Part shown: positions 1 through 30,509 of the stretch, piece by piece
How positions within the stretch are numbered: position 1 is the stretch's first letter
How the letters are laid out: each line of letters opens with the position of its first letter
Origin: Bacteroidaceae bacterium
Lineage (GTDB): Bacteria; Bacteroidota; Bacteroidia; Bacteroidales; Bacteroidaceae
DNA length: 40,717 nt
Assembly (NCBI GenBank): GCA_017428785.1
Contig: JAFRQD010000023.1
Location: 1 to 40,717 of the forward strand
Direction: 5' to 3'
Notes under the pieces: model-generated
What the model was told of the DNA's origin: nothing
Database searches by the model: none
What the model saw: the letters and a program-made list of their open reading frames with translations, nothing else
Translations under genes and position numbers: made by a program

Positions 1-177
1 GAAATTGCCTGTCAGTACAGCCGTTTTCGCTCTGTAGTTGTCATCGCGATTGAAAGGCGGCCACTTGGCAATCTGGTCCTTCGAGATGTAGTAGATGCGC
101 CTGCGAATGCCGGGCAGTTCAGGAATGCCCATGCACCATGCAAGCGACTTTTGGAAAGGAGTGCAATTTTGTGGCAT
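1..177 (-). CDS. Phage structural protein paralog, partial (N-terminal 59 residues)
   Basis: The reading frame starts at the ATG at 177 and runs off the window edge, so only the first 59 residues are seen. It begins MPQNCTPFQKSLAWCMG and continues PELPGIRRRIYYISKDQIA, almost the same as the N-terminus of the next gene upstream (257-1141). The two are therefore tandem paralogs. Being downstream of the major capsid gene, a head, connector or tail-tube role is likely, but this is inferred from position only. No domain is recognised. Confidence 0.75.
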   Translation of the reverse strand, partial: MPQNCTPFQKSLAWCMGIPELPGIRRRIYYISKDQIAKWPPFNRDDNYRAKTAVLTGNF

Positions 178-232
178 GACTTATAGGGTTAAGAATTAAG
201 AGTTAAGAATTAAGAATGAACGATTAGAAGGA
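178..232. repeat. A/T-rich heptamer repeat in the leader of the partial gene
   Basis: Repeats of a TTAAGAA-like heptamer (ttaagaattaagagttaag and continuing) occupy the spacer just before the start codon at 177. Similar short repeats precede three other genes of the element (1142-1200, 2167-2215, 4794-4850). Function unknown. Confidence 0.5.
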
Positions 233-256
233 TATTTCATCTGAAGGTCATTGTTG

Positions 257-1141
257 TCAATTTGTGATACCAGTAACCTCCAGGATGAACCACAGGACAT
301 CCGTGTTGTTTTCCCGTTTGCTGACAGCCACAGTAGCAGGAGCAGGCAAATTGCCTCTCCATGTAGCTGTTGTCCTATCAGTGTCCATCAAGGCAATGTC
401 CTCAGTGGAGTTGTCTGTGCGGACTTTGATCTGCTGCATGTTTTCACCAGTGAAGATGATTGTTGTCAATGGCCCGTGAATACTTATTTCACGACCAGCG
501 ACATTGTACGCCAGCCCATTGATAGAGACTTCATTGTCATAGACGGGAGCTTCAGCAGGGTCATCGGAATCATCGAACATTTCCCCTTGGACATCGCCAA
601 GCTCAGTTTCGATGATGCCCATGTAGAAGGGCGAAGGCACCTCGTCCGGTGCTTCCACGTTGATAGTGGTGGAAGTGGTGCCCGTAGGCCCCTGGCCATT
701 GTCCTGCGAGACCGTTGTCTTGGTGAACCACTTCCTGCAGCCCACAACGCGGAAGAAGCCCTTCATGTCTTCAACGAGGAACACATTGTCGCTGTTGTTG
801 AGATAGCAGGCGGCAGCCGACGCTTCCGGACTCACACCAGGGAACACAGCCACCAGTTTGTTCAACTGCGTCTGTGATGGCAGTTCCCCTTGTGGCTCCG
901 AAGTCAGCTGCGACTTTTCGGGAAGGATGTCAATGTACTTCCACTTGGCATCGGCAACGAGAACGAAATCACCTCTGTAGGCCGCCTTCTTCATCCTGCG
1001 ATTATTAACATCGCGGATGTAAGTAGGCCACTCGGCAATCTGGTCCTTTGAGATGTAGTAAATCCGCTTGCGGATGCCGGGCAGCTCAGGCGTACCCATG
1101 CACCACGCAAGAGATTTCTGAAGAGGAGAGCAGTTAGGCAT
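257..1141 (-). CDS. Phage structural protein of unknown function (294 aa)
   Basis: The start at 1141 gives the N-terminus MPNCSPLQKSLAWCMGTPEL, which matches that of the downstream paralog (1-177). A longer in-frame start at 1207 would overlap the capsid gene and add an unmatched tail. Residues 1-190 form the family-specific part and contain SQLTSEPQGELPSQTQLNKL. The C-terminal 100 residues look like a beta-rich Ig-type domain (threonine/valine-rich, with SINGLAYNVAGREISIHGP). The gene follows the major capsid gene in the direction of transcription. Similar proteins are common as hypotheticals in gut Bacteroidales phages, as far as I recall. A tail-tube or head-completion role is a guess. Confidence 0.7.
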   Translation of the reverse strand: MPNCSPLQKSLAWCMGTPELPGIRKRIYYISKDQIAEWPTYIRDVNNRRMKKAAYRGDFVLVADAKWKYIDILPEKSQLTSEPQGELPSQTQLNKLVAVFPGVSPEASAAACYLNNSDNVFLVEDMKGFFRVVGCRKWFTKTTVSQDNGQGPTGTTSTTINVEAPDEVPSPFYMGIIETELGDVQGEMFDDSDDPAEAPVYDNEVSINGLAYNVAGREISIHGPLTTIIFTGENMQQIKVRTDNSTEDIALMDTDRTTATWRGNLPAPATVAVSKRENNTDVLWFILEVTGITN

Positions 1142-1203
1142 GACTAATAAAATTGAAAAGGTGAAAAGTTGAAAAATTGAAGATTTCAAGAGTTCAAGGA
1201 TTA
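1142..1203. repeat. Purine-rich heptamer-like repeat before the structural gene
   Basis: The spacer between the capsid gene stop and the start at 1141 is made of GAAAAGTTG/GAAAAATTG-type repeats on the plus strand, pyrimidine-rich on the coding strand. No Shine-Dalgarno is seen. It is the same kind of leader as at 178-232, 2167-2215 and 4794-4850. Confidence 0.4.
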
Positions 1204-2166
1204 TCAATCCGCCAGTTCAACCACCTTGAAGCGGCGCTTGTCGATAGACTCGAACTGCACACCGAAGAACATGGTAGCGATGTAGGAGAGGATGAACGGC
1301 TCATACTCCTTGACCAAAACAGACTCGATGTCGCCCATCTGGTCATAACCTACGAGCATGTTGATCTTCGGGCAGATGTGGATGAACTTAGAGCCAATCT
1401 TGTTGTACATCGGCACGATGTGCAGGCGGCCATTGGAGCCTTCCACAGTGTCCTGTCCGTACTTCGTGTTGTAGTTGATGCCTCCATGAGTGAGCAGATA
1501 GCTCTCGTTGTAGGCATCAGCGAACTCCTGTGTGCAGAACATATAGAGATCCTGTGCACGAAGACGGGGATCCAGCGAGAAGAGAATCTCCTTGGCGATG
1601 TCCACCGCATTGTCGTTGGTGATGGCATCGGTGAGCTTCATGTAATTGCCCTCAGAAGCGGCAATAGTGCCAGCCGTGATCTCCTTGCTTGTGATGGTGT
1701 CGAAGCCATCGAAGAGGTCAAGAGTTGTGTCACCGTTGGGATTGCGCTCACCAGCCCAGATAGCCTCATTCAGATGCTCAGAGAGAGACTTGGCGATAAG
1801 CGCCAGCACATGCTTAGCCGTAGGCGCCTGCATCTGTCCATCGCCCTTCGTGTCACCAATCTGACCGAGGAGCGTAGATACAGCGCTGTTCGGCTCGAAC
1901 TTCGCCACGACGCTACCCAAGAATGTTTCGAGGGTGCGGAAGTCGATGTTCAGATTGAAGTCCGTAGAGCGGGAGGGCTTGTACGGTCCGAACTGAGCAT
2001 CACCGGAGAGAGCTCCCACCTGTTCCTTATAGCGGATGCCAGGGCGAGCCGTCATGTACTTCAGTGTATCCTGACAGCCTATGATAGGGAGCATGAGCAG
2101 GTCGGAGCGCCACTTGGTAGCCGCTTCCTGATATTCCTGCAGAGTAAAGTTAAGTTTTCCAGCCAT
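1204..2166 (-). CDS. Phage major capsid protein
   Basis: This 320-residue protein begins MAGKLNFTLQEYQEAATKWR. Size, position directly after a ClpP-like protease with a scaffold-like tail, and content point to an HK97-type major capsid protein: YMTARPGIRYKEQVGALSGD near the N-terminus and PRLRAQDLYMFCTQEFADAY in the middle. The conserved end of such proteins is seen in the last 40 residues (EYEPFILSYIATMFFGVQFE), typical of Bacteroidales phage capsids that finish with a strand-rich domain. The stop lies 62 bp upstream of the next structural gene. Capsid identity is inferred from gene order and general resemblance; no profile search was possible. Confidence 0.75.
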   Translation of the reverse strand: MAGKLNFTLQEYQEAATKWRSDLLMLPIIGCQDTLKYMTARPGIRYKEQVGALSGDAQFGPYKPSRSTDFNLNIDFRTLETFLGSVVAKFEPNSAVSTLLGQIGDTKGDGQMQAPTAKHVLALIAKSLSEHLNEAIWAGERNPNGDTTLDLFDGFDTITSKEITAGTIAASEGNYMKLTDAITNDNAVDIAKEILFSLDPRLRAQDLYMFCTQEFADAYNESYLLTHGGINYNTKYGQDTVEGSNGRLHIVPMYNKIGSKFIHICPKINMLVGYDQMGDIESVLVKEYEPFILSYIATMFFGVQFESIDKRRFKVVELAD

Positions 2167-2215
2167 AATAAAAATGAAGAATTAAGAATGAAGAATGAAG
2201 AATTGAACACGAGAG
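2167..2215. repeat. Heptamer repeat in the capsid gene leader
   Basis: The plus strand reads GAAGAATTAAGAATGAAGAA and continues in the same way, so the capsid mRNA leader is a pyrimidine-rich TTCATTC/TTAATTC repeat. No Shine-Dalgarno is visible. It may act as an unstructured ribosome landing region; this is inference. Confidence 0.5.
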
Positions 2216-2220
2216 AGACT

Positions 2221-3330
2221 TTACGGCACGAGATTGTAGAGCTCAGTGGCACGCTGACGCGTGGCGAAGAAGTCCTCGACAGCAGAGTGCTTGTCCTGAG
2301 GATTATCCTTCTTTTCTGTTTCTACCACCTGAGAAGTAGAAGCTCCTGGAGCCTTTTTAAGTGCATCCAGTTCTGCACGCAGTTGAGCAATCTCCTGGTC
2401 TTTGGCAGCAATAGTCGTGTTATGCTGTGCTTCCAGCGTCTGGCGCTGTTGCTCCAAAGCCTGTTGCTGTGCCTGTGACTGAGCATCCGCTGCAGGCTGC
2501 TCCTGCTGCTGAGGAGCTGGAGCTGGCTGCTGAGTCTGTACTTGCGTACCTGCTACAGGCTGCTGTACTGAGGCCTGAGGAGCCGGCTGCTGAGTCTGCA
2601 CCTGCTCCTGCTGAGTAGTAGTGTTAGCTTGTTCCATTTTAGATAATGTATTAGAGTTAGAGAAAATGTTAGTAAGTGCTTCGACAAAACGCGTGAAGAT
2701 ATTGGAAGGCTGCTGCCCGGAATAGCAGGATGGGACGGGAATACCCGAAGAAGCCATGTCAGCGGCAATAGAATCCGTAATGACAGGAGCTGCATCTTCC
2801 TCGTAATCGGTAATCTCATCTACGAAGCCCCATTCGAGCGCTTCCTTAGCAGTCAGCCATCCGCCTTTCTTCATCAGTGCGAGAAGATCCTCAGGGGACT
2901 TCTGACACTTAGAGGCGTACATCTGCGCGACATTCGCATCCATCTTCTCCAGATCGGACTTCATCTGCTTAGCCTCCTTGATGATGTCCGCCAGCTTGTC
3001 GCTGTTCGCCGAAGCCCAGCGGAAGAACTCCACCGAGCACTTATGAACAAGGTACATAGCGGAAGAATCAATAGAGACATGCTTCGCTCCAAGAGAAACA
3101 ATCGTAGCAGCAGAAGCGTTCATACCAACGAAGTGAACATGCACATTGGCGTGTTCACGGAAAGCAGCTACAATGGAGAGCGCAGTGGCCAGCGACCCGC
3201 CCAGCGAGTCAATGAGCACATGCACCTCCGTATCAGGATTCTTGGAGAGCACGTAATCGACGTAGTCCCTGTCGAAGTCGTAGCCTCCGACATACCCTTT
3301 CAGGTGAAGATGATATTTAGAATGAGCCAT
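2221..3330 (-). CDS. ClpP-like prohead protease with fused scaffold region
   Basis: Residues 1-190 resemble the ClpP/S14 peptidase fold. An early oxyanion-type motif VLIDSLGGSLATALSI is followed by a serine in GMNASAATIVSLGA (probable nucleophile) and a histidine in SAMYLVHKCS (probable base), then LTAKEALEWGFVDEIT. From about residue 230 the protein is glutamine/alanine/proline-rich low complexity. It ends in a coiled coil (about 285-330, QQRQTLEAQHNTTIAAKDQE) and a short charged tail. Such protease-scaffold fusions process and assemble phage proheads. An internal ATG at 2637 (MEQANTTTQQE) falls exactly where the scaffold begins and may give a separate scaffold product. The major capsid gene follows directly. 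Confidence 0.8.
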   Translation of the reverse strand: MAHSKYHLHLKGYVGGYDFDRDYVDYVLSKNPDTEVHVLIDSLGGSLATALSIVAAFREHANVHVHFVGMNASAATIVSLGAKHVSIDSSAMYLVHKCSVEFFRWASANSDKLADIIKEAKQMKSDLEKMDANVAQMYASKCQKSPEDLLALMKKGGWLTAKEALEWGFVDEITDYEEDAAPVITDSIAADMASSGIPVPSCYSGQQPSNIFTRFVEALTNIFSNSNTLSKMEQANTTTQQEQVQTQQPAPQASVQQPVAGTQVQTQQPAPAPQQQEQPAADAQSQAQQQALEQQRQTLEAQHNTTIAAKDQEIAQLRAELDALKKAPGASTSQVVETEKKDNPQDKHSAVEDFFATRQRATELYNLVP

Positions 3331-3334
3331 AAAA

Positions 3335-3373
3335 ATAGTGTACTAATGTGTTTCCGGCACAAAAGTACACTAT
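3335..3373 (-). promoter_or_regulatory. Late-gene promoter overlapped by a 10-bp inverted repeat
   Basis: On the minus strand a TACTTTTG box (3367-3360) fits the Bacteroidetes TAnnTTTG minus-7 element, with a start expected near 3353. A perfect inverted repeat, ATAGTGTACT (3335-3344) and AGTACACTAT (3364-3373), flanks the start point and covers the box. This is the layout of a repressor operator. The HTH gene immediately upstream is an obvious candidate to bind it, but that is inference. Confidence 0.55.
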
Positions 3374-3395
3374 TATATAAGAACAGGAAAAGACG

Positions 3396-3704
3396 CTAGG
3401 CCAGCTCCAATTCTTCCTGAAGGATAGATATTTCCAGGCAGTCCTCGATTTTGGATAATGTTTCGAGGGAGAGGTTTTCCTGTCCCTTCAGCACTTTCGA
3501 CACATATTGCTGGCTGCATCCCATAAGCTCAGCCAACTGCTTTTGTGTCATGTTCAATTCCTCCATCTTGTCAAGCATGAGCATAGCAATGTGCTGAGAG
3601 TAGCGCAGCCATGATTTGTTCTGCTGTCGCCACAGAGCCTTCTCACGCCATTTTGACGGAGTGGGTGACTGATGCTTTTTCAGTCCTTCAATTACTCCAT
3701 TCAT
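3396..3704 (-). CDS. XRE-family HTH antitoxin/repressor (HigA-like)
   Basis: A lambda-repressor-type helix-turn-helix lies in the C-terminal half: MTQKQLAELMGCSQQYVSKV followed by LKGQENLSLETLSKIEDCL. The start is set at the ATG at 3704 because an unusually strong Shine-Dalgarno (AAGGAGG, 3718-3712) stands 7 nt before it; an ATG two codons earlier is too close. The upstream partner (3732-4283) ends 27 bp before, so they form a pair. In HigBA-type modules the toxin gene comes first and the HTH antitoxin second, as here. It may also control the capsid operon through the inverted repeat at 3335-3373. Confidence 0.75.
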   Translation of the reverse strand: MNGVIEGLKKHQSPTPSKWREKALWRQQNKSWLRYSQHIAMLMLDKMEELNMTQKQLAELMGCSQQYVSKVLKGQENLSLETLSKIEDCLEISILQEELELA

Positions 3705-3731
3705 ACTCATTCCTCCTTATTATTATAAAGG

Positions 3732-4283
3732 TTATGACAACTCACTCATGTAGTCAGTAAATGCGTCTTTGTCAATGATGTTGTTTTCAAGCAGGAACCG
3801 TCTGACCTTTTCCATCTTCTCCAGTTCATGGAGCGTATGTTCACGTTCCTGCATGGTTCGAGTCAGTTTGATGGCCCCACCGGTTATCACATATATACCA
3901 GGCTCCAGTTTGATGGCATATATCCTAAGCCATGAAGCATGTTTATGATATTCTTTAAGTCTGGCTTTTTCCTTGCTAAGCAGCATATCTGAGGAGCGAC
4001 TGTTCTCCAGAGGGCGGAAAAGTTTGTCAAGGTCGGCATCGGGAGAAATGTCCATGATGAGACATTGCAGGCGTTCGCTATCATCTATAGTGTCGTAAAT
4101 AGCCTGGTTCACATCAGTTATTTTGAAATATGAAGTCAAGTCATCGATGTTTGCCTTAAAGAAATCGCGGAGCCAAACCACATCGTTCCATTGTTCAAAC
4201 AATGTATCTAAAGCATTATCAGCTTCGCCATCATACTTCGCAGCCCAAAGCCTTTCGTCTTCTGTGATAATAGAGAATTCCAT
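3732..4283 (-). CDS. Probable RelE/HigB-like toxin partner
   Basis: This 183-residue protein is acidic at the N-terminus. Its C-terminal third contains WLRIYAIKLEPGIYVITGGA followed by IKLTRTMQEREHT, a beta-strand plus lysine/arginine pattern like the Gp49/HigB-type mRNA interferase fold. An extra N-terminal 100 residues (IITEDERLWAAKYDGEADN) fits a Bacteroidales variant that I recall only as hypothetical proteins next to XRE genes. It is co-transcribed with the HTH gene 27 bp downstream and has its own promoter. The toxin role is inferred from the pairing and the C-terminal pattern. Confidence 0.6.
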   Translation of the reverse strand: MEFSIITEDERLWAAKYDGEADNALDTLFEQWNDVVWLRDFFKANIDDLTSYFKITDVNQAIYDTIDDSERLQCLIMDISPDADLDKLFRPLENSRSSDMLLSKEKARLKEYHKHASWLRIYAIKLEPGIYVITGGAIKLTRTMQEREHTLHELEKMEKVRRFLLENNIIDKDAFTDYMSELS

Positions 4284-4304
4284 AATTCAGTTATAATTTC
4301 AATG

Positions 4305-4348
4305 CAAAAATATATAAAACAAGTTTTGGGTACAACTTTTAGGTTGTA
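4305..4348 (-). promoter_or_regulatory. Promoter and palindromic operator of the toxin/antitoxin pair
   Basis: A TATTTTTG minus-7 box lies at 4312-4305, about 20 bp before the toxin start at 4283. An 18-bp palindrome, TACAACTTTTAGGTTGTA (4331-4348), sits where the minus-33 element should be. Autoregulation by the antitoxin is the usual behaviour of such modules and would use a site like this. Confidence 0.5.
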
Positions 4349-4385
4349 TAATTAACATTTATTAATATAAAAAGCACAAAAAGCA

Positions 4386-4793
4386 TCAAATAAGGCACGG
4401 AACGAGAGACTTTGGTCGTGTGAAAGTCACCTTGACAGTATTCACATGTACCTCCTTGTCAATCGTCTGTGTGATTTCCATGATAGGGTATGGCGCTTCC
4501 TTCGTACCTATGATATACGACTGCCCACCAGCATCCGTAACCACGAATGCCAGAGCAGGGTAGTGACTCAAATCGTCTGTAGTGTTGAACTGCAGCACTG
4601 TTTTCTCCGAATAGCCCCCACCCACATATTCCTGCTCAGCCTCACATGATGCATTCCTATATTGCTCAATGGAAGAGGGGAGTGGGAATATGGCAACAGG
4701 CAGTCCGGCCCGATGCTTCTCAGTGATGTTCGGTATAAGCGAAGCACAAGGCACATAATAGATGGCCGTTATGTTGGGAAGAGACTGGTGCAT
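4386..4793 (-). CDS. Hypothetical protein of the phage-like element (135 aa)
   Basis: Starts MHQSLPNITAIYYVPCASLI. It is beta-rich with no signal peptide or transmembrane helix and contains YGGGYSEK-like and AFVVTDAGGQSYIIGTKE segments. The overall look (short, strand-rich, Ala/Thr/Val) is that of a phage structural or assembly protein, but no family is recognised. It lies between the 172-residue unknown gene and the toxin/antitoxin pair, all leftward. A heptamer-rich leader (4794-4850) precedes it. Confidence 0.55.
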   Translation of the reverse strand: MHQSLPNITAIYYVPCASLIPNITEKHRAGLPVAIFPLPSSIEQYRNASCEAEQEYVGGGYSEKTVLQFNTTDDLSHYPALAFVVTDAGGQSYIIGTKEAPYPIMEITQTIDKEVHVNTVKVTFTRPKSLVPCLI

Positions 4794-4850
4794 TGAAGAA
4801 TGAGAAAATGAAAGAATGAAAGAATGAAAAGGTGGACAAAACGAGAATGA
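4794..4850. repeat. GAATGAAA-type repeat leader
   Basis: The plus strand carries GAATGAGAAAATGAAAGAAT and further copies. This is the fourth occurrence in the element of a short-unit purine-rich repeat just before a start codon. The coding strand is therefore pyrimidine-rich and lacks a Shine-Dalgarno. Confidence 0.45.
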
Positions 4851-4867
4851 GGTAGTGAAAAAATTAG

Positions 4868-5368
4868 CTACATTTCTGCGTCTTTTGAAGATTTATGGTC
4901 AGTCAGACGATTATTCTTGCAATATGTAGCCCTACAACGCTGTAGAATCTTGGCGATAGTGTTCCAGTTCTTGTCATCCACCTCGATGCCATGTTTCTCC
5001 ATCCAGTCAGAGATGACGATGTCCGTCCTCTTGACCACATTCCCGACGGTATGCAGATCCGTCCACATAGCCACCTTGAAGCGATTGCGTATGCACTGGT
5101 GCAGCGCCTTCTCACCGCGAGGTGGCAAGTAGTTATAAGTACGCGTGTCTCTCAGTCGGAATCTAGGCAGCAGTATTTCCACCTGCCCAGGCAGTGCTTT
5201 AATCTGTGGCCTATACTGAGGGTCACGCGGTTGTTTCTGTAGGAACAGCTGCAGGATAGCAGCTTCAGCCGAAGCTCTCTTGACGGGAATAGGGCTAGTA
5301 CCGCCCATCTCATGTTTCAACCATTGGGCCAGATACGGCTCCAGTGTAATAAAAATAGTGTTTTCCAT
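4868..5368 (-). CDS. Hypothetical protein of the phage-like element
   Basis: The start MENTIFITLEPYLAQWLKHE at 5368 is preferred over one six codons earlier (5386), because the TACCTTTG promoter box at 5402-5395 would put the transcript start at about 5388. The protein is basic and contains two stretches that look conserved: KALPGQVEILLPRFRLRDTR and NWNTIAKILQRCRATYCKNN. The second resembles a short helical DNA-binding segment. I do not recognise a family. The gene begins a new transcription unit next to the iteron block, so a role in replication control or packaging initiation is possible but unproven. Confidence 0.55.
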   Translation of the reverse strand: MENTIFITLEPYLAQWLKHEMGGTSPIPVKRASAEAAILQLFLQKQPRDPQYRPQIKALPGQVEILLPRFRLRDTRTYNYLPPRGEKALHQCIRNRFKVAMWTDLHTVGNVVKRTDIVISDWMEKHGIEVDDKNWNTIAKILQRCRATYCKNNRLTDHKSSKDAEM

Positions 5369-5394
5369 AGTATCAGCAATTTTCAAATGATGTG

Positions 5395-5402
5395 CAAAGG
5401 TA
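5395..5402 (-). promoter_or_regulatory. Promoter minus-7 box (TACCTTTG)
   Basis: A perfect TAnnTTTG element on the minus strand, 27-34 bp before the start codon at 5368. It separates the primase transcription unit, which ends in a terminator at about 5740, from the downstream genes. Confidence 0.6.
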
Positions 5403-5482
5403 CTGATAATCGATAGTATCTCAACTATATATTAAACTTTTTCTGAAAAAAAGATTTTTCAACTCGTGTACACCTGTTTTCG

Positions 5483-5699
5483 CTTCCAACATTTACAACA
5501 CGTTCAACGATGTGCTAATTTATTGATATAAAATAAGATATAAATGTTGCATGTGTTGCCAGTGTTGTAAACTGCCCGATTTTGTTGTTGAAAAAAGCTA
5601 ATTATGAACAATGTTGTCAGATGTTGTCAGATGTTTCCGAGAGGAAGCCTTTTAACTTATTATAAAATAATATGTTGTATAAGTTGTAAATGTTGTAAG
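5483..5699. other. Origin-like block of four triple iterons
   Basis: Four clusters each hold three head-to-tail copies of a TGTTGTAAA-like unit. Cluster A (5483-5509) is inverted, with 9-bp spacing. Cluster B (5545-5571) reads TGTTGCATG, TGTTGCCAG, TGTTGTAAA. Cluster C (5612-5641) has 10-bp spacing with two identical TGTTGTCAGA copies. Cluster D (5673-5699) reads TGTTGTATA, AGTTGTAAA, TGTTGTAAG. Centres are about 60-68 bp apart, with A/T-rich spacers between A and B and between C and D. It sits beside the primase-ATPase gene, as replication origins of phages and plasmids often do. No open reading frame occupies it. Confidence 0.65.
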
Positions 5700-5735
5700 T
5701 AAAAAATGAGCTATCAAAATCAAATCGCTTTTTTC

Positions 5736-5784
5736 GGACAAAAAATAACCCCGATTACGTGCCTCGCGGCAAATAATCGGGGTT
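5736..5784 (-). terminator. Intrinsic terminator after the primase gene
   Basis: A perfect 11-bp stem (AACCCCGATTA, 5747-5757, with TAATCGGGGTT, 5774-5784) and a 16-nt loop are followed on the minus strand by a TTTTTT run (5745-5740). It stands 38 bp after the primase stop codon. Confidence 0.8.
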
Positions 5785-5821
5785 TGCAGAAGGTTCTGCA
5801 CTGAAAGAAAGAGAAGAATGT

Positions 5822-8800
5822 CTATAAGTCTAATGTCTGTTGTTTAGGATGAGCAGCATCATAATCTTCCTTATGAGCAGTGTCTCCATCATCATCGGAT
5901 GCCAGTTCCAGGTTGATGCCATAGTCCTCTTCCAGAATACCGTAGTCAAAGCAATAGGCTTGGAATACCTTGCTCTCGGGAACGCCTTCACCGCCACTCT
6001 TGAACTTCTGAACTCCACCATGAAACACCTTGAAGCGTACCCCTTTCTTATATCCTAGATAAGCCCTGGAGTTAAGGAGATAGTATTCAAGAGAACTTTC
6101 CGAAAGGATATTATCGCCCACAGCTTTTCCGTTCTTCTTGTAAAGCATGAACAATCGGGACTTTTGGACATAGAGAACAGGATGTGCTTCCTGCCATTCA
6201 CGTTTGTATTTGTCCGTATTGAGGCGGTGCAGATACTCGACACGGTAATCACCCCCGTCAACGAGCAAGTTCTCACCGACGAGATACATCACCACCTTCC
6301 AGAAGTTGGAAAGCTCATTGTTCTGCTTACAATGGGAGTTTTGAAAGCGTATGCCTTCGACACAGATATTGAACATCTCCTTATAGGAAAGTGAAGTGTC
6401 AATAGCACTCTCCAGACACCTGAACACAGTCAGCGGCGACACCCAGTTCATCATGATACGATCCTCGATATCTTTGCCCTTTTCCTTCAGGCTCTCGCTG
6501 ACCTCCATCATTGTCTGATGATAGAGATTGCGGAAAGAGCCTTCCACCTTCTTTCTGTGACTGAGTATCTCCAGTGTCAGATGTGTCAAGCCCTGCTTTC
6601 TGATTTGATTAAGCGTAAGGAAGTTTGCCCTTTCCTCTTCAGAGAACGAAGAATTCTTGAACGAGAGGAAGATGATACGCGAGAAAAGCGCATTGTCGGC
6701 AGTCGGCATCTCCTGTCCAGAGAGAATGACGCCAGAATCGACAGAAGTCACCTCGCTCTTCTTATCCAGATCCATGTTCTTGCGTGTACGTCCCGTGCCG
6801 TCCCAGAGTCCTTTCAAGAACTCAATCTTGCTAGGCTCCATTTCATTCTTGTACTCATCAAGGTGAACCAGCGCATTCGACACAGCGGCCACCGTATCGC
6901 AAAGAGCAGGCTTGGTAGAGTTATGTATATTTGGCGGCACGTTATCAATGATGAAGAATGACATCAGCGTATGTCCCAGCTCGGACTTACCAGAGCCTTT
7001 CGGTCCGAAGAGATTCAGGATAGGGAAGGAGCGTGTCACCCTTGTCACGATGTCCCTGTTAAGCGTAGCCAATAGGAACAGGAATCCCATGCGTCCATTG
7101 TTCCCGAAAACTCGGAAAAGATGATTCGTAAGCTCTTTGAGTGAAATGGTAGAAAGTCCCAGATGTACGAAACGCCGTTCAAACTGGAAAAGCTTCTTGT
7201 CCTTACTGTAGATAGAAGAGTTTGCAGGCAGATAGTAATTGCCTTCAGGCAGTCTGACGATACCCACATCATCTGTTTTGAGGAATTTCCCATCATGGAA
7301 TATACCATTGCCAAAGGCAAAGAACCCCTCGCTTTGCCATCCCAGCTGTACAATCTCCTCAGCCGAATCCGTGACCTCATAAAGCAGTTCCTTCAGCTTT
7401 TGCAATTCACGATTCGAAGCTTTCCAGATGAAATTACCCAAGCCTTCGACTTTCACCATGAACCTTTGCAGTGAGCACAAATCCTCCTGCTTCAGTTCCA
7501 GCAGTTCCTGCTGTCCCCGTTCATTCTTCAGCAAGTAGATACGCTTAGGATTCACGCTGTCTCTGATATGATAAAGCGGCGTCATGATGAAATTACTCCA
7601 TACATACACCCCACCTTTATCAGAGATAGAGTAATAGTGTTTGTCTTTCTCGATGTTGAAGCCATACTTTTTGAAAAGGTCAGAATCCTTTTCAGCCTTA
7701 GCCTTCGCTTCAGCTTCCGCCTGCTCATTACGCTGTGCATCCAGAGCCTTCTGCCAAGTGCGCTTCCCGGGAACATATTTTGTCAGTTTCGAGATATACC
7801 TGTCAACAGTTGTTTCATCAGATAGGGTAGTCATGAGCGAAGCAAGCCTGTTAATAATCTTGCTTTCCTGCTCTGCAGTCATGCCCTTCTCGAATAGGAG
7901 TTCGGCCAGCCAAAGAATAAAATCTGTTTCCTTAAGTTTATCAAACTTTGCCTTGTCTTTACAGTACGAGTCAGGATCCTTTTTCTTTTTTCCGATGGGT
8001 ATCTGCTTCACAGAGACAGTAAAGCCATACTTCATGGCCGCTTCGCCAGACTCCATCACCGCCTTGATGCCAGGTCCGTACTTCTCGTTAGGCTTGGGTG
8101 GGTCCGCATCAGGCACGAAGCAGATGTGTGAAGCCTTCTTCTTGATGATGGCACAATGTTCCTCCGTCCAGGCAGTGCCTAAAGGTGCCAAAGTGTTAGG
8201 AACACCGATGAGATGTAGCCTTATACAGTCAGAAGCACCTTCCACGATGTGACAGATGCCAGTCCGAAAGATTGCTCCCCATGCCGTATCAGAACCAAAG
8301 AATGAACTTTTCTTGTCATATATGATGCTTTCTTTGCTGTTCATATACTTTGGCGGCTCCTTCTCCTTGTCTTTATACTTGTCTTTGGGGATTTGTAGAA
8401 GGCGAGCTGTGAATCCGATAATGTGCTGGTTCCTGTCGCGGATAGGAATGACAACACGTTCATTGAAGAAGTCATACCCACCTTTGTTCTTCAGTCCCAG
8501 CTGCTCGACGATTTCATTTGATATGCCAAGCTTATCAATCAGGCGTGCGTCGGGCGGACAATAACCAATGAGATGTTTTTTGCAGTATTCTTCATTCCAT
8601 CGTCCGAAGGCATATTTGGAAGCTTCTACGTTATTAAGAAGCAGCTCATGATAGTATTTCGCCAGGATGTCATTGGCTATGTACATTGCCTCCTTCTGTT
8701 TCCGTACCATTTCATCCTGTGCAGAAGGCTCGGACTCCTCGATATCGATGTTGTATTTCTCAGCCAGTTTCTTCACAGCTTCGGGGAATGAGCAGCCATC

Positions 8801-9025
8801 ATGTTTTATAACGAAGCTGATGCTGTTTCCATGTTCATGGCATCCGAAGCAATGGTACGTATCAGTCTCAGGCGAAACGCAAAAAGAGCCAGTCTTCTCT
8901 TCATGGAAAGGGCAGCACGCAAAGAGGTACCTGCCTTTTTGTTTCAGGTTTACATTATAGTCCTTGACAACATCCACGATGTTGCAAGCATCCAGAACCC
9001 TGTCAATGTCGGATTGTTTAATCAT
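5822..9025 (-). CDS. Primase with C-terminal P-loop ATPase (replication primase-helicase)
   Basis: The 1067-residue protein has three parts. Residues 30-65 form a DnaG-type CHC2 zinc finger (ACCPFHEEKTGSF and YHCFGCHEHGN; ligands C38, H41, C59, C62). Residues about 255-345 are a TOPRIM domain with catalytic E262 (HIVEGASD) and D306/D308 (CFVPDADPP). From about 545 comes a helicase-like P-loop domain with Walker A GPKGSGKSE (674-682), Walker B LVHLDEYKN (D723/E724) and a later SRIIFLSF segment. Primase-ATPase fusions replicate many phages, plasmids and satellites. The tail is acidic. The start overlaps the preceding small gene by 8 bp, so they are translationally coupled. It resembles DUF927-type mobile-element ATPases; the exact helicase family is uncertain. 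Confidence 0.85.
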   Translation of the reverse strand: MIKQSDIDRVLDACNIVDVVKDYNVNLKQKGRYLFACCPFHEEKTGSFCVSPETDTYHCFGCHEHGNSISFVIKHDGCSFPEAVKKLAEKYNIDIEESEPSAQDEMVRKQKEAMYIANDILAKYYHELLLNNVEASKYAFGRWNEEYCKKHLIGYCPPDARLIDKLGISNEIVEQLGLKNKGGYDFFNERVVIPIRDRNQHIIGFTARLLQIPKDKYKDKEKEPPKYMNSKESIIYDKKSSFFGSDTAWGAIFRTGICHIVEGASDCIRLHLIGVPNTLAPLGTAWTEEHCAIIKKKASHICFVPDADPPKPNEKYGPGIKAVMESGEAAMKYGFTVSVKQIPIGKKKKDPDSYCKDKAKFDKLKETDFILWLAELLFEKGMTAEQESKIINRLASLMTTLSDETTVDRYISKLTKYVPGKRTWQKALDAQRNEQAEAEAKAKAEKDSDLFKKYGFNIEKDKHYYSISDKGGVYVWSNFIMTPLYHIRDSVNPKRIYLLKNERGQQELLELKQEDLCSLQRFMVKVEGLGNFIWKASNRELQKLKELLYEVTDSAEEIVQLGWQSEGFFAFGNGIFHDGKFLKTDDVGIVRLPEGNYYLPANSSIYSKDKKLFQFERRFVHLGLSTISLKELTNHLFRVFGNNGRMGFLFLLATLNRDIVTRVTRSFPILNLFGPKGSGKSELGHTLMSFFIIDNVPPNIHNSTKPALCDTVAAVSNALVHLDEYKNEMEPSKIEFLKGLWDGTGRTRKNMDLDKKSEVTSVDSGVILSGQEMPTADNALFSRIIFLSFKNSSFSEEERANFLTLNQIRKQGLTHLTLEILSHRKKVEGSFRNLYHQTMMEVSESLKEKGKDIEDRIMMNWVSPLTVFRCLESAIDTSLSYKEMFNICVEGIRFQNSHCKQNNELSNFWKVVMYLVGENLLVDGGDYRVEYLHRLNTDKYKREWQEAHPVLYVQKSRLFMLYKKNGKAVGDNILSESSLEYYLLNSRAYLGYKKGVRFKVFHGGVQKFKSGGEGVPESKVFQAYCFDYGILEEDYGINLELASDDDGDTAHKEDYDAAHPKQQTLDL

Positions 9026-9251
9026 TATCGTCTATAATTTCCTCATCAGGTAGGCAAGTATAAAACTGCGTACCTTTGTCCACGAGCCATGCCATGATGT
9101 GATAGTCAATCAGTTCGTACTCAAAGGTGATGGAGGTCAGATTTCCCACACACTCACCGACGATGATGTTCACTGGCAGGGCGTGCTCTACCTGCAATTC
9201 CACGATTTTAGTGGCAATCTTCGGCTGCACATAGTAAACTTTCCTTTCCAT
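9018..9251 (-). CDS. Small hypothetical protein coupled to the primase
   Basis: This 77-residue protein begins MERKVYYVQPKIATKIVELQ and is strand-rich, with an acidic end (LPDEEIIDDND). Its last 8 bp overlap the primase start. No family is recognised. Genes in this position often encode replication accessory or anti-defence proteins, but nothing in the sequence shows that. It lies only 1 bp after the ORF6N gene, so the three form one unit. Confidence 0.6.
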   Translation of the reverse strand: MERKVYYVQPKIATKIVELQVEHALPVNIIVGECVGNLTSITFEYELIDYHIMAWLVDKGTQFYTCLPDEEIIDDND

Positions 9252-9252
9252 G

Positions 9253-9822
9253 CTATTCCTCTTTACCTCCTCGAATGATTTTGTGCCTTATCTTCACGAC
9301 AGCGAAGTTAAGTTCAATTTCTGTTTCGACAGCTCTGGTGGAAAGATTCTGCCCGATGATTTCTCCCATGAGTTCGCCTGACTTCTTTAGAAGTTCTTTC
9401 TGCAATGACTCGCCATCAGGAGCGTGCTGCATTTCTTCCATCTTTCTTGCCATCTCTCGCACCTGTGTAAATGTATTGATGATGGCGATAGAAGTCATCA
9501 CTGCATTCTTTGACTTCAGGATTGTAGCCAGCATGTATAAGCCTCTTTCCGTGAAAGCTTTGTAGTTGTATTTTGAGTGTTTACCATAGTGCATTTCTTG
9601 TATGGTCGAAATTTTCGACCTTACAGATGAAGACTCTTCGTCGGTCAATTCAATTATGTAACCATCAGGAAACTTTTCAATGTTATTCCTGACAGCTTCA
9701 TTCACCCTTTTTGTCTCTACGCCATAAAGTGCAGCAACATCTCTGTCAAGCAAAACTTTCTGTCCACGCACGACAATAACTTTGTCTTCTACATCTTTTG
9801 TTGTAATGATTTCGTTTGCCAT
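9253..9822 (-). CDS. ORF6N-domain DNA-binding protein
   Basis: The start at 9822 (MANEIITTKDVEDKVIVVRG) gives 189 residues and places the domain at the N-terminus; the longer frame lacks support. Residues 15-75 match the ORF6N pattern: VIVVRGQKVLLDRDVAALYG followed by VETKRVNEAVRNNIEKFP. The following segment (YNYKAFTERGLYMLATILKS) is usual in Bacteroidales ORF6N proteins, and a coiled-coil helix follows. The family is common in phages and mobile elements and is thought to bind DNA as a regulator or antirepressor. The role here is inferred. A hairpin with a T-run precedes it (9841-9886). Confidence 0.8.
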   Translation of the reverse strand: MANEIITTKDVEDKVIVVRGQKVLLDRDVAALYGVETKRVNEAVRNNIEKFPDGYIIELTDEESSSVRSKISTIQEMHYGKHSKYNYKAFTERGLYMLATILKSKNAVMTSIAIINTFTQVREMARKMEEMQHAPDGESLQKELLKKSGELMGEIIGQNLSTRAVETEIELNFAVVKIRHKIIRGGKEE

Positions 9823-9840
9823 AATAATTAGAATAGATGT

Positions 9841-9887
9841 TAAAAAATTGCCTCTGCATGCGTTCTTCTCAGAGGACAGGCAGAGGA
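9841..9887 (-). terminator. Possible terminator/attenuator before the ORF6N gene
   Basis: On the minus strand CCTCTG (9886-9881) can pair with CAGAGG (9856-9851), followed by CAATTTTTT. A second CCTCTG (9878-9873) can pair with the same partner, so two alternative stems exist. It lies between the HTH gene and ORF6N, where partial read-through would lower expression of the replication genes. Confidence 0.4.
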
Positions 9888-9923
9888 CTTTACGCATTTA
9901 GAGTTCTTTGTGAGAGAACTTAA

Positions 9924-10145
9924 TTATAAAGCACGTAGCCATTCAACAATTTCGCTTTTAAGCAGGAGCCATGACTTACGTTCTTTGTGACATGGAATCT
10001 GTTTGCGCTGACACATTTTCTTTACGGCTTCTCTGGTCTTGCCGAGAAATTCGGCAGCATCATCCAATGTCATAACCGTGTCATTACAATTTACGATTCT
10101 TTGTGCTAGGGTAGTGTTTGCCCCTTTTGCTTTAATTTGTACCAT
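9924..10145 (-). CDS. Excisionase-like helix-turn-helix protein
   Basis: This 73-residue protein ends in the MerR-like HTH found in excisionases and many mobile-element regulators: VMTLDDAAEFLGKTREAVKK, then CQRKQIPCHKERKSWLLLKS and EIVEWLRAL. That is the HTH_17 layout in which the recognition helix is followed by a small wing. Position near the right end of the element, about 840 bp from the probable attachment site, supports an excision or early-control function. It is preceded by a 75-residue gene 12 bp upstream. Excisionase activity is inferred, as no integrase is in view. Confidence 0.7.
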   Translation of the reverse strand: MVQIKAKGANTTLAQRIVNCNDTVMTLDDAAEFLGKTREAVKKMCQRKQIPCHKERKSWLLLKSEIVEWLRAL

Positions 10146-10157
10146 ACTTGCCTTTCT

Positions 10158-10385
10158 TTAAGTTTTAATCTTTTCGCATTTAATACTAAACGATTTCTCA
10201 TCCCAGTTGCGCTTGGTTGTCAGCTTAACACCTCTATCTCTTCCCAGCCCTTGATTGAATCTGCTGACGAGAGTAGATAATGTGTCAATCTCTTCATAAT
10301 TTCTGACGAAACCCTTTTTTTCGTCGCCTGGACGGATTGAACGAATCCATTCCGTCTTCTTCTCAATGAAAGTTTTTTCTTCCAT
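10158..10385 (-). CDS. Small hypothetical protein (75 aa)
   Basis: Begins MEEKTFIEKKTEWIRSIRPG and is charged and basic (RDRGVKLTTKRNWDEKSFSI). No domain recognised. The gene sits 12 bp upstream of the excisionase-like gene and would share its mRNA. Its size and composition fit a small early regulator of a mobile element, but the sequence gives no direct clue to function. Confidence 0.5.
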   Translation of the reverse strand: MEEKTFIEKKTEWIRSIRPGDEKKGFVRNYEEIDTLSTLVSRFNQGLGRDRGVKLTTKRNWDEKSFSIKCEKIKT

Positions 10386-10409
10386 AATACATGTGTGTTT
10401 AATTGGTAA

Positions 10410-10676
10410 TTACCACCTACCTACAGGGGTGGATTCATTACAAATTAAATGCAGTATTACAAATGTCGCTTTTACATGCATTAATACACCTGTTTTCCTT
10501 TTGGAAAATGCACCTTGAACTGCCATTCCCATAAAATTCATGTTGCTTGAAGAAGGAAATCTATACATATTATATAATTTTAGTTCTTTTCCCTGAAAAT
10601 GTTTGTTTGTTTGCTTATTATTTAGTACCTTTGCAGTGTAATTAAGAGGTCTGTTATAGCAATCGAACACCAGCAT
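10410..10676 (-). CDS. Doubtful small ORF at the start of the early operon
   Basis: An 88-codon frame (MLVFDCYNRPLNYTAKVLNN) starts about 23 nt downstream of the expected transcript start of the minus-strand promoter at 10713-10706. That is a normal leader length for the phylum. Against it, composition is not protein-like, a plus-strand promoter lies inside it, and no family is recognised. It may simply be the 5' leader of the early operon. Confidence 0.22.
   Translation of the reverse strand: MLVFDCYNRPLNYTAKVLNNKQTNKHFQGKELKLYNMYRFPSSSNMNFMGMAVQGAFSKRKTGVLMHVKATFVILHLICNESTPVGRW
10626..10633 (+). promoter_or_regulatory. Plus-strand promoter box (TACCTTTG)
   Basis: A perfect minus-7 box with TTTG repeats (TTTGTTTGTTTGC, about 10600-10612) at the minus-33 distance. 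Transcription would start near 10640 and run right. No open frame of normal size follows, so a regulatory RNA or a very small protein is possible. Confidence 0.45.
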
Positions 10677-10705
10677 TAGTGATACTAAATTTCACGAATT
10701 TGGTG

Positions 10706-10713
10706 CAAAGTTA
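10706..10713 (-). promoter_or_regulatory. Early leftward promoter box (TAACTTTG)
   Basis: A perfect TAnnTTTG box on the minus strand. It is the best candidate to drive the leftward set from the small genes through the primase, ending at the terminator at 5736-5784. It faces the plus-strand promoter at 10626, so the two transcripts would overlap by about 60 nt. Confidence 0.5.
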
Positions 10714-10918
10714 CGAGAGTTTCAAAGTCACTGCAAGAAATTTCGGGACTGAAACGGCAAACAAACAAACCAAAAAATCTTAATTGCTCCCGTGTAGAGA
10801 TATGGGAATATCAAAAAAACAAATTAAATAATAATAATAATCAACGCCTCTCTAAAGGCAAAACTCTGAAAATTGTCGTTGGATAAAATCCGCAACTGAA
10901 AAATGGTAGAAAAAGAGT

Positions 10919-10951
10919 ATGTGTACACAAAATCAAAATCGGTATACACAT
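10919..10951. repeat. Near-perfect inverted repeat beside the attachment site
   Basis: ATGTGTACAC (10919-10928) and GTATACACAT (10942-10951) match at 9 of 10 positions as an inverted repeat. They lie 31 bp from the tRNA-like core. Placement suggests integrase arm sites or an excisionase operator; this is inference. Confidence 0.4.
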
Positions 10952-10981
10952 CTCTTCCTAACTATCTTATAATCAAATAGT

Positions 10982-11003
10982 GGTTCGAATCCGACAAGAG
11001 GCT
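10982..11003 (+). other. Probable attachment site: remnant of a tRNA 3' end
   Basis: The sequence has the geometry of a tRNA end: T-loop TTCGAAT (10984-10990), T-stem strand CCGAC (10991-10995), a 7-nt acceptor strand AAGAGGC (10996-11002) and discriminator T. The bases before it (AGTGG) do not complete the T-stem, as expected where element DNA replaces the tRNA body. A tRNA-type terminator follows at 11050. The acceptor implies a tRNA beginning GCCTCTT; its identity cannot be read, although threonine is plausible. Confidence 0.6.
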
Positions 11004-11049
11004 CAAGGATAGACGAAGTCAATCCGCTGTTTAAGCAGAAAACGCATTT

Positions 11050-11079
11050 AGAGAGTTCTTAAAAGAGCTCTCTTTTTTT
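11050..11079 (+). terminator. Terminator of the disrupted tRNA
   Basis: AGAGAG (11050-11055) pairs with CTCTCT (11068-11073), followed by a T-run (11073-11079). It closely resembles the terminator after tRNA-Thr at 23713-23742, supporting the view that this stretch was once the downstream end of a tRNA gene. Confidence 0.65.
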
Positions 11080-11243
11080 GTTTATAAAAGCCGAAATCAG
11101 TTCGACAACTATTCCATGGCCAATAGTTTTCTGCAAAGGTACGGACATGAAATGACGCATGAAAAGATAGGGATACACATGAAAAGAGTAGGAAGACAGG
11201 AAAAAAATCCTCGTTGCAAATGCTATGTCCTGGATCTTTTTCT

Positions 11244-11251
11244 TATCTTTG
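11244..11251 (+). promoter_or_regulatory. Promoter box (TATCTTTG) of the metallo-hydrolase gene
   Basis: A perfect minus-7 element. The transcript should start near 11258, giving a leader of about 25 nt and excluding the upstream in-frame start at 11214. Confidence 0.6.
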
Positions 11252-11282
11252 TACTGCATTTACATTCAAAACAACCAATAAT

Positions 11283-12269
11283 ATGGACAGAAGAGAATTC
11301 ATGCAAGCCGGAATAGCTACGATAGCACTATCCGGAATGAGCGGTGCGGAGGCTTATGCAAAGCCGTTTAGCGCTATTGCAAACGAAGAAAGAGGCTTTG
11401 CGCCTGTCACCTGCGAGAACGCCGCGGCCTCCGATGCCGACCTTCGGGTGCGATTCCTCGGCACGGGAGCTGCCGGATGGAAAGCAGGCACAACAACCGA
11501 AAGGCGCAACAGCAGCGTGCTGCTCGACGGGAAGGTGCTCATCGACCTCACTGTAAGCGTGCGCGACATGCTGCCCGAGGACTGCCACCCCGAGCATATC
11601 TTCTATACGCATTCCCACGGCGACCACTATCAGCCCCTCGAAGCACTGAAGCTGGGAGTGAAGACGGTCTATGTTTCCGATACGTGGATTGACCGTGCGA
11701 AGAGCGATTTCCGCCGCCTCGCATCAGAGAACAAACTGCCTGCCCCTCAGTTCGTCACGCTGAAGATTGGCGTGCCCGTCACGGTGGAAGGCCTCACCTT
11801 CACACCTCTTCCGGCCAACCACACAACAAACTTCTACGAAGAGCAGGCTCAGATATACCTTGTCGAGAAGGGTACAACGGCAGAGCGACTCGGCGTGCGC
11901 ATGCTCTATGCCACCGACACAAGCGGCATCATGGGCAAGGCAGCACGGCTGGCTGGCATCGACGCGCACAAGAGCGACATCCCGGACCGTCCGATAACAG
12001 CTTTCGTCATGGAAGCCACGATGGGACTTGGGCACGAGGAGGACTTCCGCCTCTTCAACCATTCCACCCCCGAAGTTGTTGCTCGAATAGCCCACGTGCT
12101 TGCCCGCACAAAACGCTACACTCCGCCAGCAGGCCAGCCTGTCTACCTCACCCACATCTCTAATCCCCTTCACGGCAGCCTCCAGCAGGACGAACTCAAC
12201 AAATCTCTCCCCATTCCCCTCCGTGCTGCTTCCGACGGCCTTGAAGTTGTCTTCCGTGCTGTGGAGTAG
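11283..12269 (+). CDS. Exported metallo-beta-lactamase-fold hydrolase
   Basis: The start at 11283 gives MDRREFMQAGIATIALSG, a twin-arginine-type leader (DRREF followed by a hydrophobic stretch). The mature part begins with VRFLGTGAAGWKAG and carries the metal-binding motif THSHGDHY (HxHxDH), a later NHTTNFY, ATDTSGIM and HISNPLHG. This order is that of RNase Z/PhnP-like phosphodiesterases in the metallo-beta-lactamase superfamily. The substrate is unknown; a cyclic phosphodiester or lactone is typical for the fold. Export suggests a periplasmic enzyme. The gene stands alone and converges on the DUF362 gene. Confidence 0.75.
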   Translation: MDRREFMQAGIATIALSGMSGAEAYAKPFSAIANEERGFAPVTCENAAASDADLRVRFLGTGAAGWKAGTTTERRNSSVLLDGKVLIDLTVSVRDMLPEDCHPEHIFYTHSHGDHYQPLEALKLGVKTVYVSDTWIDRAKSDFRRLASENKLPAPQFVTLKIGVPVTVEGLTFTPLPANHTTNFYEEQAQIYLVEKGTTAERLGVRMLYATDTSGIMGKAARLAGIDAHKSDIPDRPITAFVMEATMGLGHEEDFRLFNHSTPEVVARIAHVLARTKRYTPPAGQPVYLTHISNPLHGSLQQDELNKSLPIPLRAASDGLEVVFRAVE

Positions 12270-22096: not shown

Positions 22097-22198
22097 GAGG
22101 CATGGGGCGTTAGCCAACGCCGCCTGCGGCATCGACCAACGCCGCACGCGGCGTTTGCAATTTCCCCACGCGAAGTTGGCCAACGCCCCACGCGGAAT
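22097..22198. repeat. GC-rich AACGCCGC repeat cluster downstream of malQ
   Basis: At least three units of the type CAACGCCGC-N2-GCGG begin at 22115, 22137 and 22181. One is a perfect palindrome, AACGCCGCACGCGGCGTT (22138-22155). The same family occurs at 30422-30509. No credible gene lies in 21999-22507; overlapping frames there only translate the repeats. Confidence 0.65.
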
Positions 22199-22419
22199 TT
22201 GGGCTCAAAGTACGCAGTATTTGGCAGAATCCCGTGCTGCGCCTGTACTTTCTTTGCTTCCTTCTTGAAAACGCCTCTTCGCAAACCCTTGATTTCAGAG
22301 GGAAACGCGATTTAAGGCCATATTTTGCGCTCGGGGTAGAAAAGTGCCACAGAAGAAAAAACAAGGCCTTAGAGAGAAAGGCTCAGAGAAAAATCTTGAC
22401 AAATATGCAAGACAACAAA

Positions 22420-30421: not shown

Positions 30422-30509
30422 AAAACGCCGCCTGCGGAATTGCCCAACGCCGCGTGCGGGGATTGCCATCGCCGCAGCCGGGGATTGCCATCGCCGCACG
30501 CGGCGTTTT
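30422..30509. repeat. GC-rich AACGCCGC repeat between trkA and priA
   Basis: Four tandem units of about 22-24 bp of the type CGCCGC-N2-GCGG-N(GATTGCC). The outer ends, AAAACGCCGC (30422-30431) and GCGGCGTTTT (30500-30509), form an inverted repeat followed by a T-run, so it can act as a bidirectional terminator. Same family as 22097-22198. Confidence 0.65.

Follow-up and report, generated by a model that had tools for sequence, protein, structure and literature searches.

The stretch of DNA analysed here, called the window throughout, is a whole contig of 40,717 bp, the left part of which is a phage-like element encoded on the minus strand and cut by the start of the contig. The element carries two unassigned genes, one of them in capsid position, a gene for a Clp-type head protease with a C-terminal extension, an HTH gene, two further unassigned genes, the gene of a 166/172-aa protein (hereafter the 172-aa protein), that of a 1067-aa DnaG-type primase-ATPase and that of an ORF6N antirepressor; no integrase was found among these nine element proteins. 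For the genes at 257-1207 and 1204-2166, the latter in the position of the major capsid gene, no phage family was matched below E 0.03. Near the right edge of the element, a tRNA 3'-end-like stretch (GTGGTTCGAATCC, 10975-11010) was noticed by eye and represents a possible attachment site; ARAGORN reported no tRNA at 10975-11010, and Rfam returned no match in window positions 1-11300.

The primase gene (5822-9025, minus strand) encodes a DnaG-type primase fused to a P-loop ATPase/helicase-like half, which we propose as the initiator of the element. Its product matches Zn_ribbon_DnaG (1.6e-32), DNAG_N (1.2e-18) and Toprim_2 (2.7e-07), and a GPKGSGKS P-loop can be recognised by eye in the conserved half of the protein. 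Behind the gene lies a terminator-like inverted repeat (5747-5784, minus strand) with 17-nt arms of 88% identity, which a simple terminator scan does not list. The next gene, that of the 172-aa protein (4868-5368, minus strand), opens an operon leading to the head genes and is preceded by TACCTTTG at 5395-5402 (minus strand), which we take to be the Bacteroidota-type -7 box of its promoter; a sigma-70 promoter scan performed close to chance, with 3 promoters found versus 2.1 expected. Between this terminator and the new promoter, just where the first-pass annotation of the DNA had placed it, lies a block of short repeats (5483-5699, clusters at 5486-5699) that is a candidate replication origin. 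No ORF of at least 80 aa runs over the block, in line with the earlier description, and the stretch 5369-5821 has a G+C content of 33% versus 50% for the whole window.

Along the primase strand, the block is built of three direct clusters A, B and C, an A/T-rich gap and an inverted cluster D. Cluster A (5673-5698, minus strand), the nearest to the primase and direct along its strand, has three units 9 bp apart and matches the spaced triple pattern with 0 mismatches. The units of cluster B (5611-5640, minus strand) are 10 bp apart and the third is degenerate (GTTTCC), while cluster C (5545-5571, minus strand) again holds three units 9 bp apart. An extra overlapping pair of units (5583-5590, minus strand; GTTG at 5584/5587) is located between clusters B and C, and two related loci, L043 and L050, carry single units at about this place. 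The A/T-rich gap (5509-5544), a candidate melting region, contains an IHF-like site, TATCAATAAATTA at 5516-5528 (minus strand), that matches exactly what we take to be the applicable consensus, namely that of E. coli IHF. Cluster D (5486-5508, plus strand) is made up of three units 9 bp apart in inverted orientation. On the plus strand of the window the GTTG cores start at 5546/5555/5564, 5613/5623 and 5674/5683/5692, and on the minus strand at 5487/5496/5505, which bears out the claim that the first cluster in window order is inverted relative to the others. The cluster starts at 5487, 5546, 5613 and 5674 give intervals of 59, 67 and 61 bp, so that the spacing of about 60-68 bp given by the first-pass annotation agrees with the 59-67 bp measured. 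Its count of four triple clusters with 12 units of 9-10 bp stands as regards the clusters, whereas GTTG is present in 11 of the 12 units and one is degenerate; the unit core, described there as TGTTGTAAA-like, has to be corrected to TGTTG (CAACA).

Strict GTTG triples with 8-11-bp spacing occur only three times in the 40,717 bp, all of them inside the block. When the stretch 5369-5821 was resampled with a first-order Markov model, at least one such triple appeared in 8 of 5,000 resamplings and at least two in none. Allowing up to 3 mismatches, the spaced triple pattern gave 8 matches in the window versus a shuffle mean of 0.81 (100 shuffles, largest 5), and the three best matches are three of the block's clusters. 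The generic scans designed for the family score the window's block modestly, below the threshold of the exact 6-mer scan and at 5.8 on a second scan with a threshold of 4; whole-locus resamplings reached the threshold in 0/240 and 0/144 cases, respectively.

Family-, genus- and order-level whole genomes, viral contigs, named phages and one plasmid served as sources of relatives. Of 393 order-level genomes, 32 carry the helicase half at E<=1e-30, as do 16 of 139 genus-level genomes at E<=1e-20, with the genome of the window among them; the viral-contig sample comprises the best 80 of 128 loci. Removal of seven duplicates reduced 169 loci to 162 unique ones, which were subjected to a blind scan for 7-mers recurring at 8-12 bp on either strand; setting aside five more with <300 nt downstream left 157 loci, window included. 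The scan leaves out L001-L004, L006-L035 and L083-L099, which repeat the same places, as well as L038/L039 with <150 nt downstream, and L091 (G406) and L022 are also absent from the scanned set. Applied to phage P4 as a positive control, the same scan ranked two annotated elements highest, crr, 73 nt past the stop of alpha, and ori, followed by a weaker match to the attP arm repeats.

In 104 of the 157 loci a block starts between -20 and +700 nt from the primase stop, versus 28 of 1,421 upstream 720-nt zones, and at a score of at least 7 the figures are 65/157 and 3/1,421; the three best blocks per locus were retained, which limits the control count, and the upstream zones are mostly coding. 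Composition was also controlled within the zones themselves: 105 of 157 real zones (1,020 nt) scored at least 4, whereas of 1,570 sequences resampled from these zones 5 did so and none reached a score of 6. At a score of at least 5, blocks were present in 100/157 real zones and in 12 of 383 A/T-rich windows elsewhere in the loci. The latter figure shows that short matches do arise in A/T-rich intergenic DNA, and it is the one point in favour of reading the block as chance or low-complexity repeats. This reading is already contradicted by the resampling controls, that is by the lack of a second triple in the local resamplings, by the whole-locus resamplings and by those of the same zones, and we give it practically no credence.

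Some block was found anywhere in 142 of the 157 loci, not all of this layout; the best block lies in the zone from -20 to +700 nt in 98 loci, farther downstream in 34 and upstream in 10. Conversely, 53/157 loci have no scored block within 700 nt and 15/157 none anywhere. Ten loci that the scan had missed or that looked odd were inspected by eye: six have repeat clusters (L154 and L109, both already counted, L100, L145, L179 and L122), and L044, L164, L170 and L056 have none within 520 nt. Close relatives with primases 97-99% identical retain the block, and several remoter ones retain the layout with the word, as we call the sequence of the repeat unit, altered. In L047 and L061-L067 the block is 2-7 kb from the primase, and no 172-aa homologue was found there. 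Outside the order, one of four loci was scored (Flavobacterium phage laban6-1), while no scored block was detected in Cellulophaga Ingeline, Flavobacterium 1H and a Persicobacter plasmid. In the clade L070, L072-L075, which has no such block behind the primase, TACGGAA recurs as a short opposed repeat (++--++) whose position is constant, about 3.9 kb upstream of the primase stop; it may serve these five loci as a cis site of their own. The first-pass annotation had suggested looking for the clusters beside homologous primases and had regarded their absence there as evidence against an origin; they recur in the 104 of 157 loci given above, and, since some relatives have no block near the primase, the expectation does not hold everywhere. 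Plasmids with the same primase were considered as a proof of sufficiency and set aside: only 3 of 245 matching records were covered by more than 80%, at 26-27% identity (Persicobacter), and the one that was fetched (L283) is the plasmid already mentioned as having no scored block.

What persists across lineages is the layout of direct clusters, an A/T-rich gap, often with an IHF-like site, and an inverted cluster, whereas the word differs by lineage and includes ACAACA, GCAACA, GTAACA, TCTACA, ACTACA, TGCACA, GCTACA, TTGACA, CCTACA, CCAACA, TTACTT and GTAAA types, among others. The gap before the terminal inverted cluster, evaluated in 93 loci, has a median length of 45 nt and a median G+C content of 26% versus 47% for the loci, and it is lower in G+C than its own locus in all 93. 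Of 62 thinned gaps, 19 contain the E. coli IHF consensus exactly, where shuffling gave 0.4 on average and 3 at most; with up to one mismatch allowed the count rises to 47, versus an average of 7.6 and a maximum of 12 after shuffling. A shared 6-mer was sought in the same 62 gaps and none rose above the shuffle maxima. We also considered whether iteron incompatibility is visible as different words in co-resident copies, and dropped this line of support on account of a mixed outcome in the 8 genomes with at least two scored copies. The words clearly differ in five of them (G811, G703, G798, G861 and G331, the last counted with locus L052; simple counts), with one copy in G798 cut off, they differ by one base in G525 and they are the same or nearly the same in G532 and G598; in G697 only one of two copies has a scored block.

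The change of word between lineages allowed us to ask which of the two flanking proteins it follows, as the first-pass annotation had left the binder open between the primase and the 172-aa protein. Motifs were extracted from 115 loci, of which 105 have a primase of at least 900 aa and 90 have both proteins, leaving 77 after thinning. In these 77 loci, the distance between words correlates with primase distance given the 172-aa protein (partial Mantel r 0.489, 0/2000 permutations) and not with 172-aa distance given the primase (partial Mantel r -0.038, 1557/2000), bearing in mind that the permutations do not correct for shared ancestry. For pairs whose 172-aa proteins are at least 30, 40 or 50% identical, the values are 0.55-0.57 for the primase and -0.10 to 0.08 for the 172-aa protein. 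Natural recombinants point in the same direction. The window and L005 share a 172-aa protein at 97% identity and a primase at 62%, and the word has changed; L104 and L152 have primases 98% and 172-aa proteins 26% identical, and the word is the same; L049 and L200, with 172-aa proteins 65% and primases 39% identical, have different words. Words also differ between some primases that are 60-75% identical (L051, L180), which counts against tracking of the primase. The word of L154 likewise differs from those of L103, L104 and L152 despite primases 84-98% identical, in this case because the scan picked the wrong A/T-rich block, the units read by eye being GCTACA and GCCTACA; this locus was kept in the 77-locus Mantel test, where it counts against the primase, and was removed by hand from the sliding-window test described next.

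In a sliding-window comparison over the primases of 83 loci, the extra correlation with the word was highest at the C-terminus, for windows from residue 941 on. Given whole-primase divergence, residues 961-1060 retain a partial r of 0.274 with the word (0/1000 permutations) and the first 80 residues one of 0.149 (1/1000), both segments having been picked after the sliding-window result and the values being uncorrected for that choice. The alignment of the primase C-terminus would read as helices followed by a hairpin, possibly a winged helix, and on the strength of the co-variation we propose residues ~957-1060 (5846-6157, minus strand) as the iteron-reading domain. With the block mostly lying next to the primase gene, part of the correlation between word and primase is explained by co-inheritance alone; the C-terminal peak and the P4 positive control speak for something beyond it. 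Because the word varies with the primase rather than with the 172-aa protein, the choice of binder is now weighted to the primase, and the 172-aa protein was set aside as a likely binder on the partial Mantel test and the natural recombinants.

The same data bear on the possibility that the block is an operator or enhancer through which the 172-aa protein or another regulator switches the downstream late operon. A 172-aa homologue starts at most 700 nt 3' of the block in 80 of the 96 loci that have both, and in L042, L159, L178, L203 and L212-L215, where block and primase are far apart, the block adjoins the 172-aa gene. Against this, with the primase controlled for the word does not follow the 172-aa protein, and L060 and L200 have the block with the primase while the 172-aa gene lies kilobases away. 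The presumed -7 box is moreover outside the block, 85 bp from the nearest repeat unit in the window, and among 102 homologues of the 172-aa gene, 67 have TANNTTTG close to the gene start, compared with a mean of 11.0 and a maximum of 20 in shuffles. Finally, of 23 loci that have the 172-aa gene but lack this type of primase in a flank perhaps too short to reveal it, 17 have no block in the 700 nt upstream of the gene. Altogether we regard an operator as improbable. Still less credible, and assigned only a very small probability, is a pac/cos packaging site with the 172-aa protein as small terminase. In lambda cosB, repeated sites are mixed with an IHF site, and the block, with its IHF-like site, heads an operon that leads into head genes. 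A terminase site should, however, co-vary with its terminase, and the word ignores the 172-aa protein; furthermore, the terminase large subunit is about 8 kb away in an annotated Porphyromonas phage, and the 172-aa family matches no terminase family.

The 172-aa family, for which no convincing match was obtained in Pfam, PHROG or NCBIfam, was encountered in 63 viral loci, also behind other primase-helicase-like genes. Among 62 viral loci found via the 172-aa protein, 19 are too short to judge and 23, those referred to above, lack such a primase in the flank; 6 of the 23 do have a block (L225, L243, L244, L269, L277 and L278). Four of these six, L225, L243, L277 and L269, were examined. In L225, L243 and L277 the 172-aa gene follows a large replication-type gene of another kind, and the block between the two has yet another word. 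The replication-type protein of L243 combines DUF3854 with a DnaG zinc ribbon and that of L277 DUF5906 with DUF3854, whereas that of L225 has no Pfam match and shares an unnamed PHROG with L243. No such replication-type gene is listed for L269.

The P4 replicon is among the closest known systems. The window protein and P4 alpha both combine a primase with a helicase or helicase-like half, and in both cases short iterons, clustered and in both orientations, lie right behind the primase gene and a terminator. Binding of P4 alpha to its origin repeats is described as involving a winged helix (PMC4234260). The structure of the C-terminal domain of alpha has been solved (1KA8). In contrast to alpha, which has Pox_D5, D5_N and DUF5906, the window protein has none of the three; DUF5906 is matched by 1 of 55 relatives, at 0.0096. 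Comparison by hhalign gave a probability of 5% for the window protein versus alpha, which is not significant, and of 0.1%, judged by sequence only, for a P4-type origin-binding domain (1KA8/Pox_D5) in the C-terminus of the window primase, for which no convincing PDB relative was found either. SaPI Rep is reported to act with its C-terminal domain on iterons directly downstream of its own gene, and to have a DUF927 relative, Cch, in SCC elements (PMC7581432). The window shares with SaPI Rep, as described, the iterons directly downstream of the helicase gene and differs from SaPIbov1 Rep/Cch in the DnaG-type primase fused to the helicase half, in its Bacteroidota hosts and in being found in phages with head genes. 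DUF927 is matched by 7 of 55 relatives (best 2.2e-06) and not by the window protein. The best reading is that the window's replicon works like those of P4 and SaPI without being a P4 alpha member by sequence.

In iteron plasmids, too, short repeat clusters adjoin the initiator gene together with an A/T-rich stretch, as in our block, except that the initiator proposed here is an enzyme and not a small Rep. A Pfam scan of the nine element proteins brought up neither Rep_3 nor RepA_N, other parts of the element lying beyond the contig. For RepA_N plasmids, a comparable arrangement of repeats and A/T-rich DNA near the initiator gene is described in PMC7145576. Bordetella phage BIP-1 and plasmid pRN1 resemble the window in having a primase-helicase with a C-terminal DNA-binding domain and an origin 3' of its gene, shown for pRN1 and proposed for BIP-1 (PMC4234260); their downstream origin differs in being a large stem-loop without iterons.

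The P4 comparison also raises the question of how much of an origin the block represents. The P4 region in the corresponding place, behind the terminator, is crr, one part of a two-part origin whose ori is about 4.8 kb away, so the block could be half of an origin. It might accordingly be an accessory cis element of the crr kind, such as a copy-number or incompatibility locus, with forks starting elsewhere. In the flanks scanned, which cover few whole phages and, for the window, a phage that is cut, one block with an IHF-like gap is usual, and a second, ori-like block of the same word is no general trait. We consider an accessory element rather unlikely, and it is in our view probable that a temperate phage replicon has its replication origin, or the principal cis portion of one, in this block, which would be read by the C-terminal domain of the primase-helicase itself. 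The first-pass interpretation of the block as an iteron origin thus gains support from the recurrence in the family, the layout and the co-variation of word and primase, from which origin activity is predicted.

We infer the following mechanism for such an origin. The fused DnaG-type primase-helicase would bind the 9-10-bp iterons via its C-terminal domain (~residues 957-1060), loading on the direct clusters and on the opposed inverted cluster, while an IHF/HU-type protein may bend the A/T-rich gap between them. The gap would then melt, the same primase-helicase would unwind the DNA and prime, and its fused primase would start synthesis. Since reader and word lie side by side, they would be expected to diversify together and to move as one module. 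A change in GC skew, which the first-pass annotation had named as a sign of an origin, lends no help. Among 58 thinned loci, the mean skew is +0.063 in the 4 kb left of the block and -0.012 in the 4 kb right of it; a shift at the block, positive on the primase side and near zero on the other, is seen in 54 of 58 loci, and the right side exceeds the left in only 4. The direction is thus opposite to that of a simple bidirectional origin, and in a whole Porphyromonas phage the skew shows no change of sign, for which reasons we dropped it as evidence; the shift possibly stems from the codon use of the primase or coding bias.

Taken together, and with confidence only slightly above even, we read the loci as a widespread and apparently undescribed class of Bacteroidota phage replicons in which a DnaG primase-helicase with a C-terminal word-reader has its origin just downstream. 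Reader and word would have co-diversified into dozens of "replicon passwords" on one scaffold of direct triples, an IHF-bent A/T gap and an inverted triple, and unrelated primase-helicases, each bringing its own word, would have been swapped into the same slot in front of the same late gene. In the open-access literature, to which the search was largely confined, subscription journals being mostly beyond its scope, we recognised no paper describing such an origin in Bacteroidota phages. Bacteroidota are a major group of gut and rumen bacteria, and the block would provide a sequence rule for locating the candidate origin and naming the initiator in many of their phages. The many pairs of word and reader would make the long-standing question of initiator-origin co-evolution and module swapping testable by comparison and by simple binding assays, and, if the reading is true, they form a natural series of sufficient size for a protein-DNA recognition code to be worked out comparatively.

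A few further repeats came to light along the way. The contig of L037 has, 12 kb upstream of its primase stop, a second opposed-triple block (1151-1322) with the word ATTACA, perhaps part of a different replicon. Tandem arrays unlike the iteron blocks follow the primase stop in L208 (CAAAGAG x16, at about 3840 nt) and L299 (CACATTA x14, at about 843 nt). In the chromosomal part of the window, GC-rich tandem repeats of about 22 bp form two arrays at 22136-22202 and 30424-30498.
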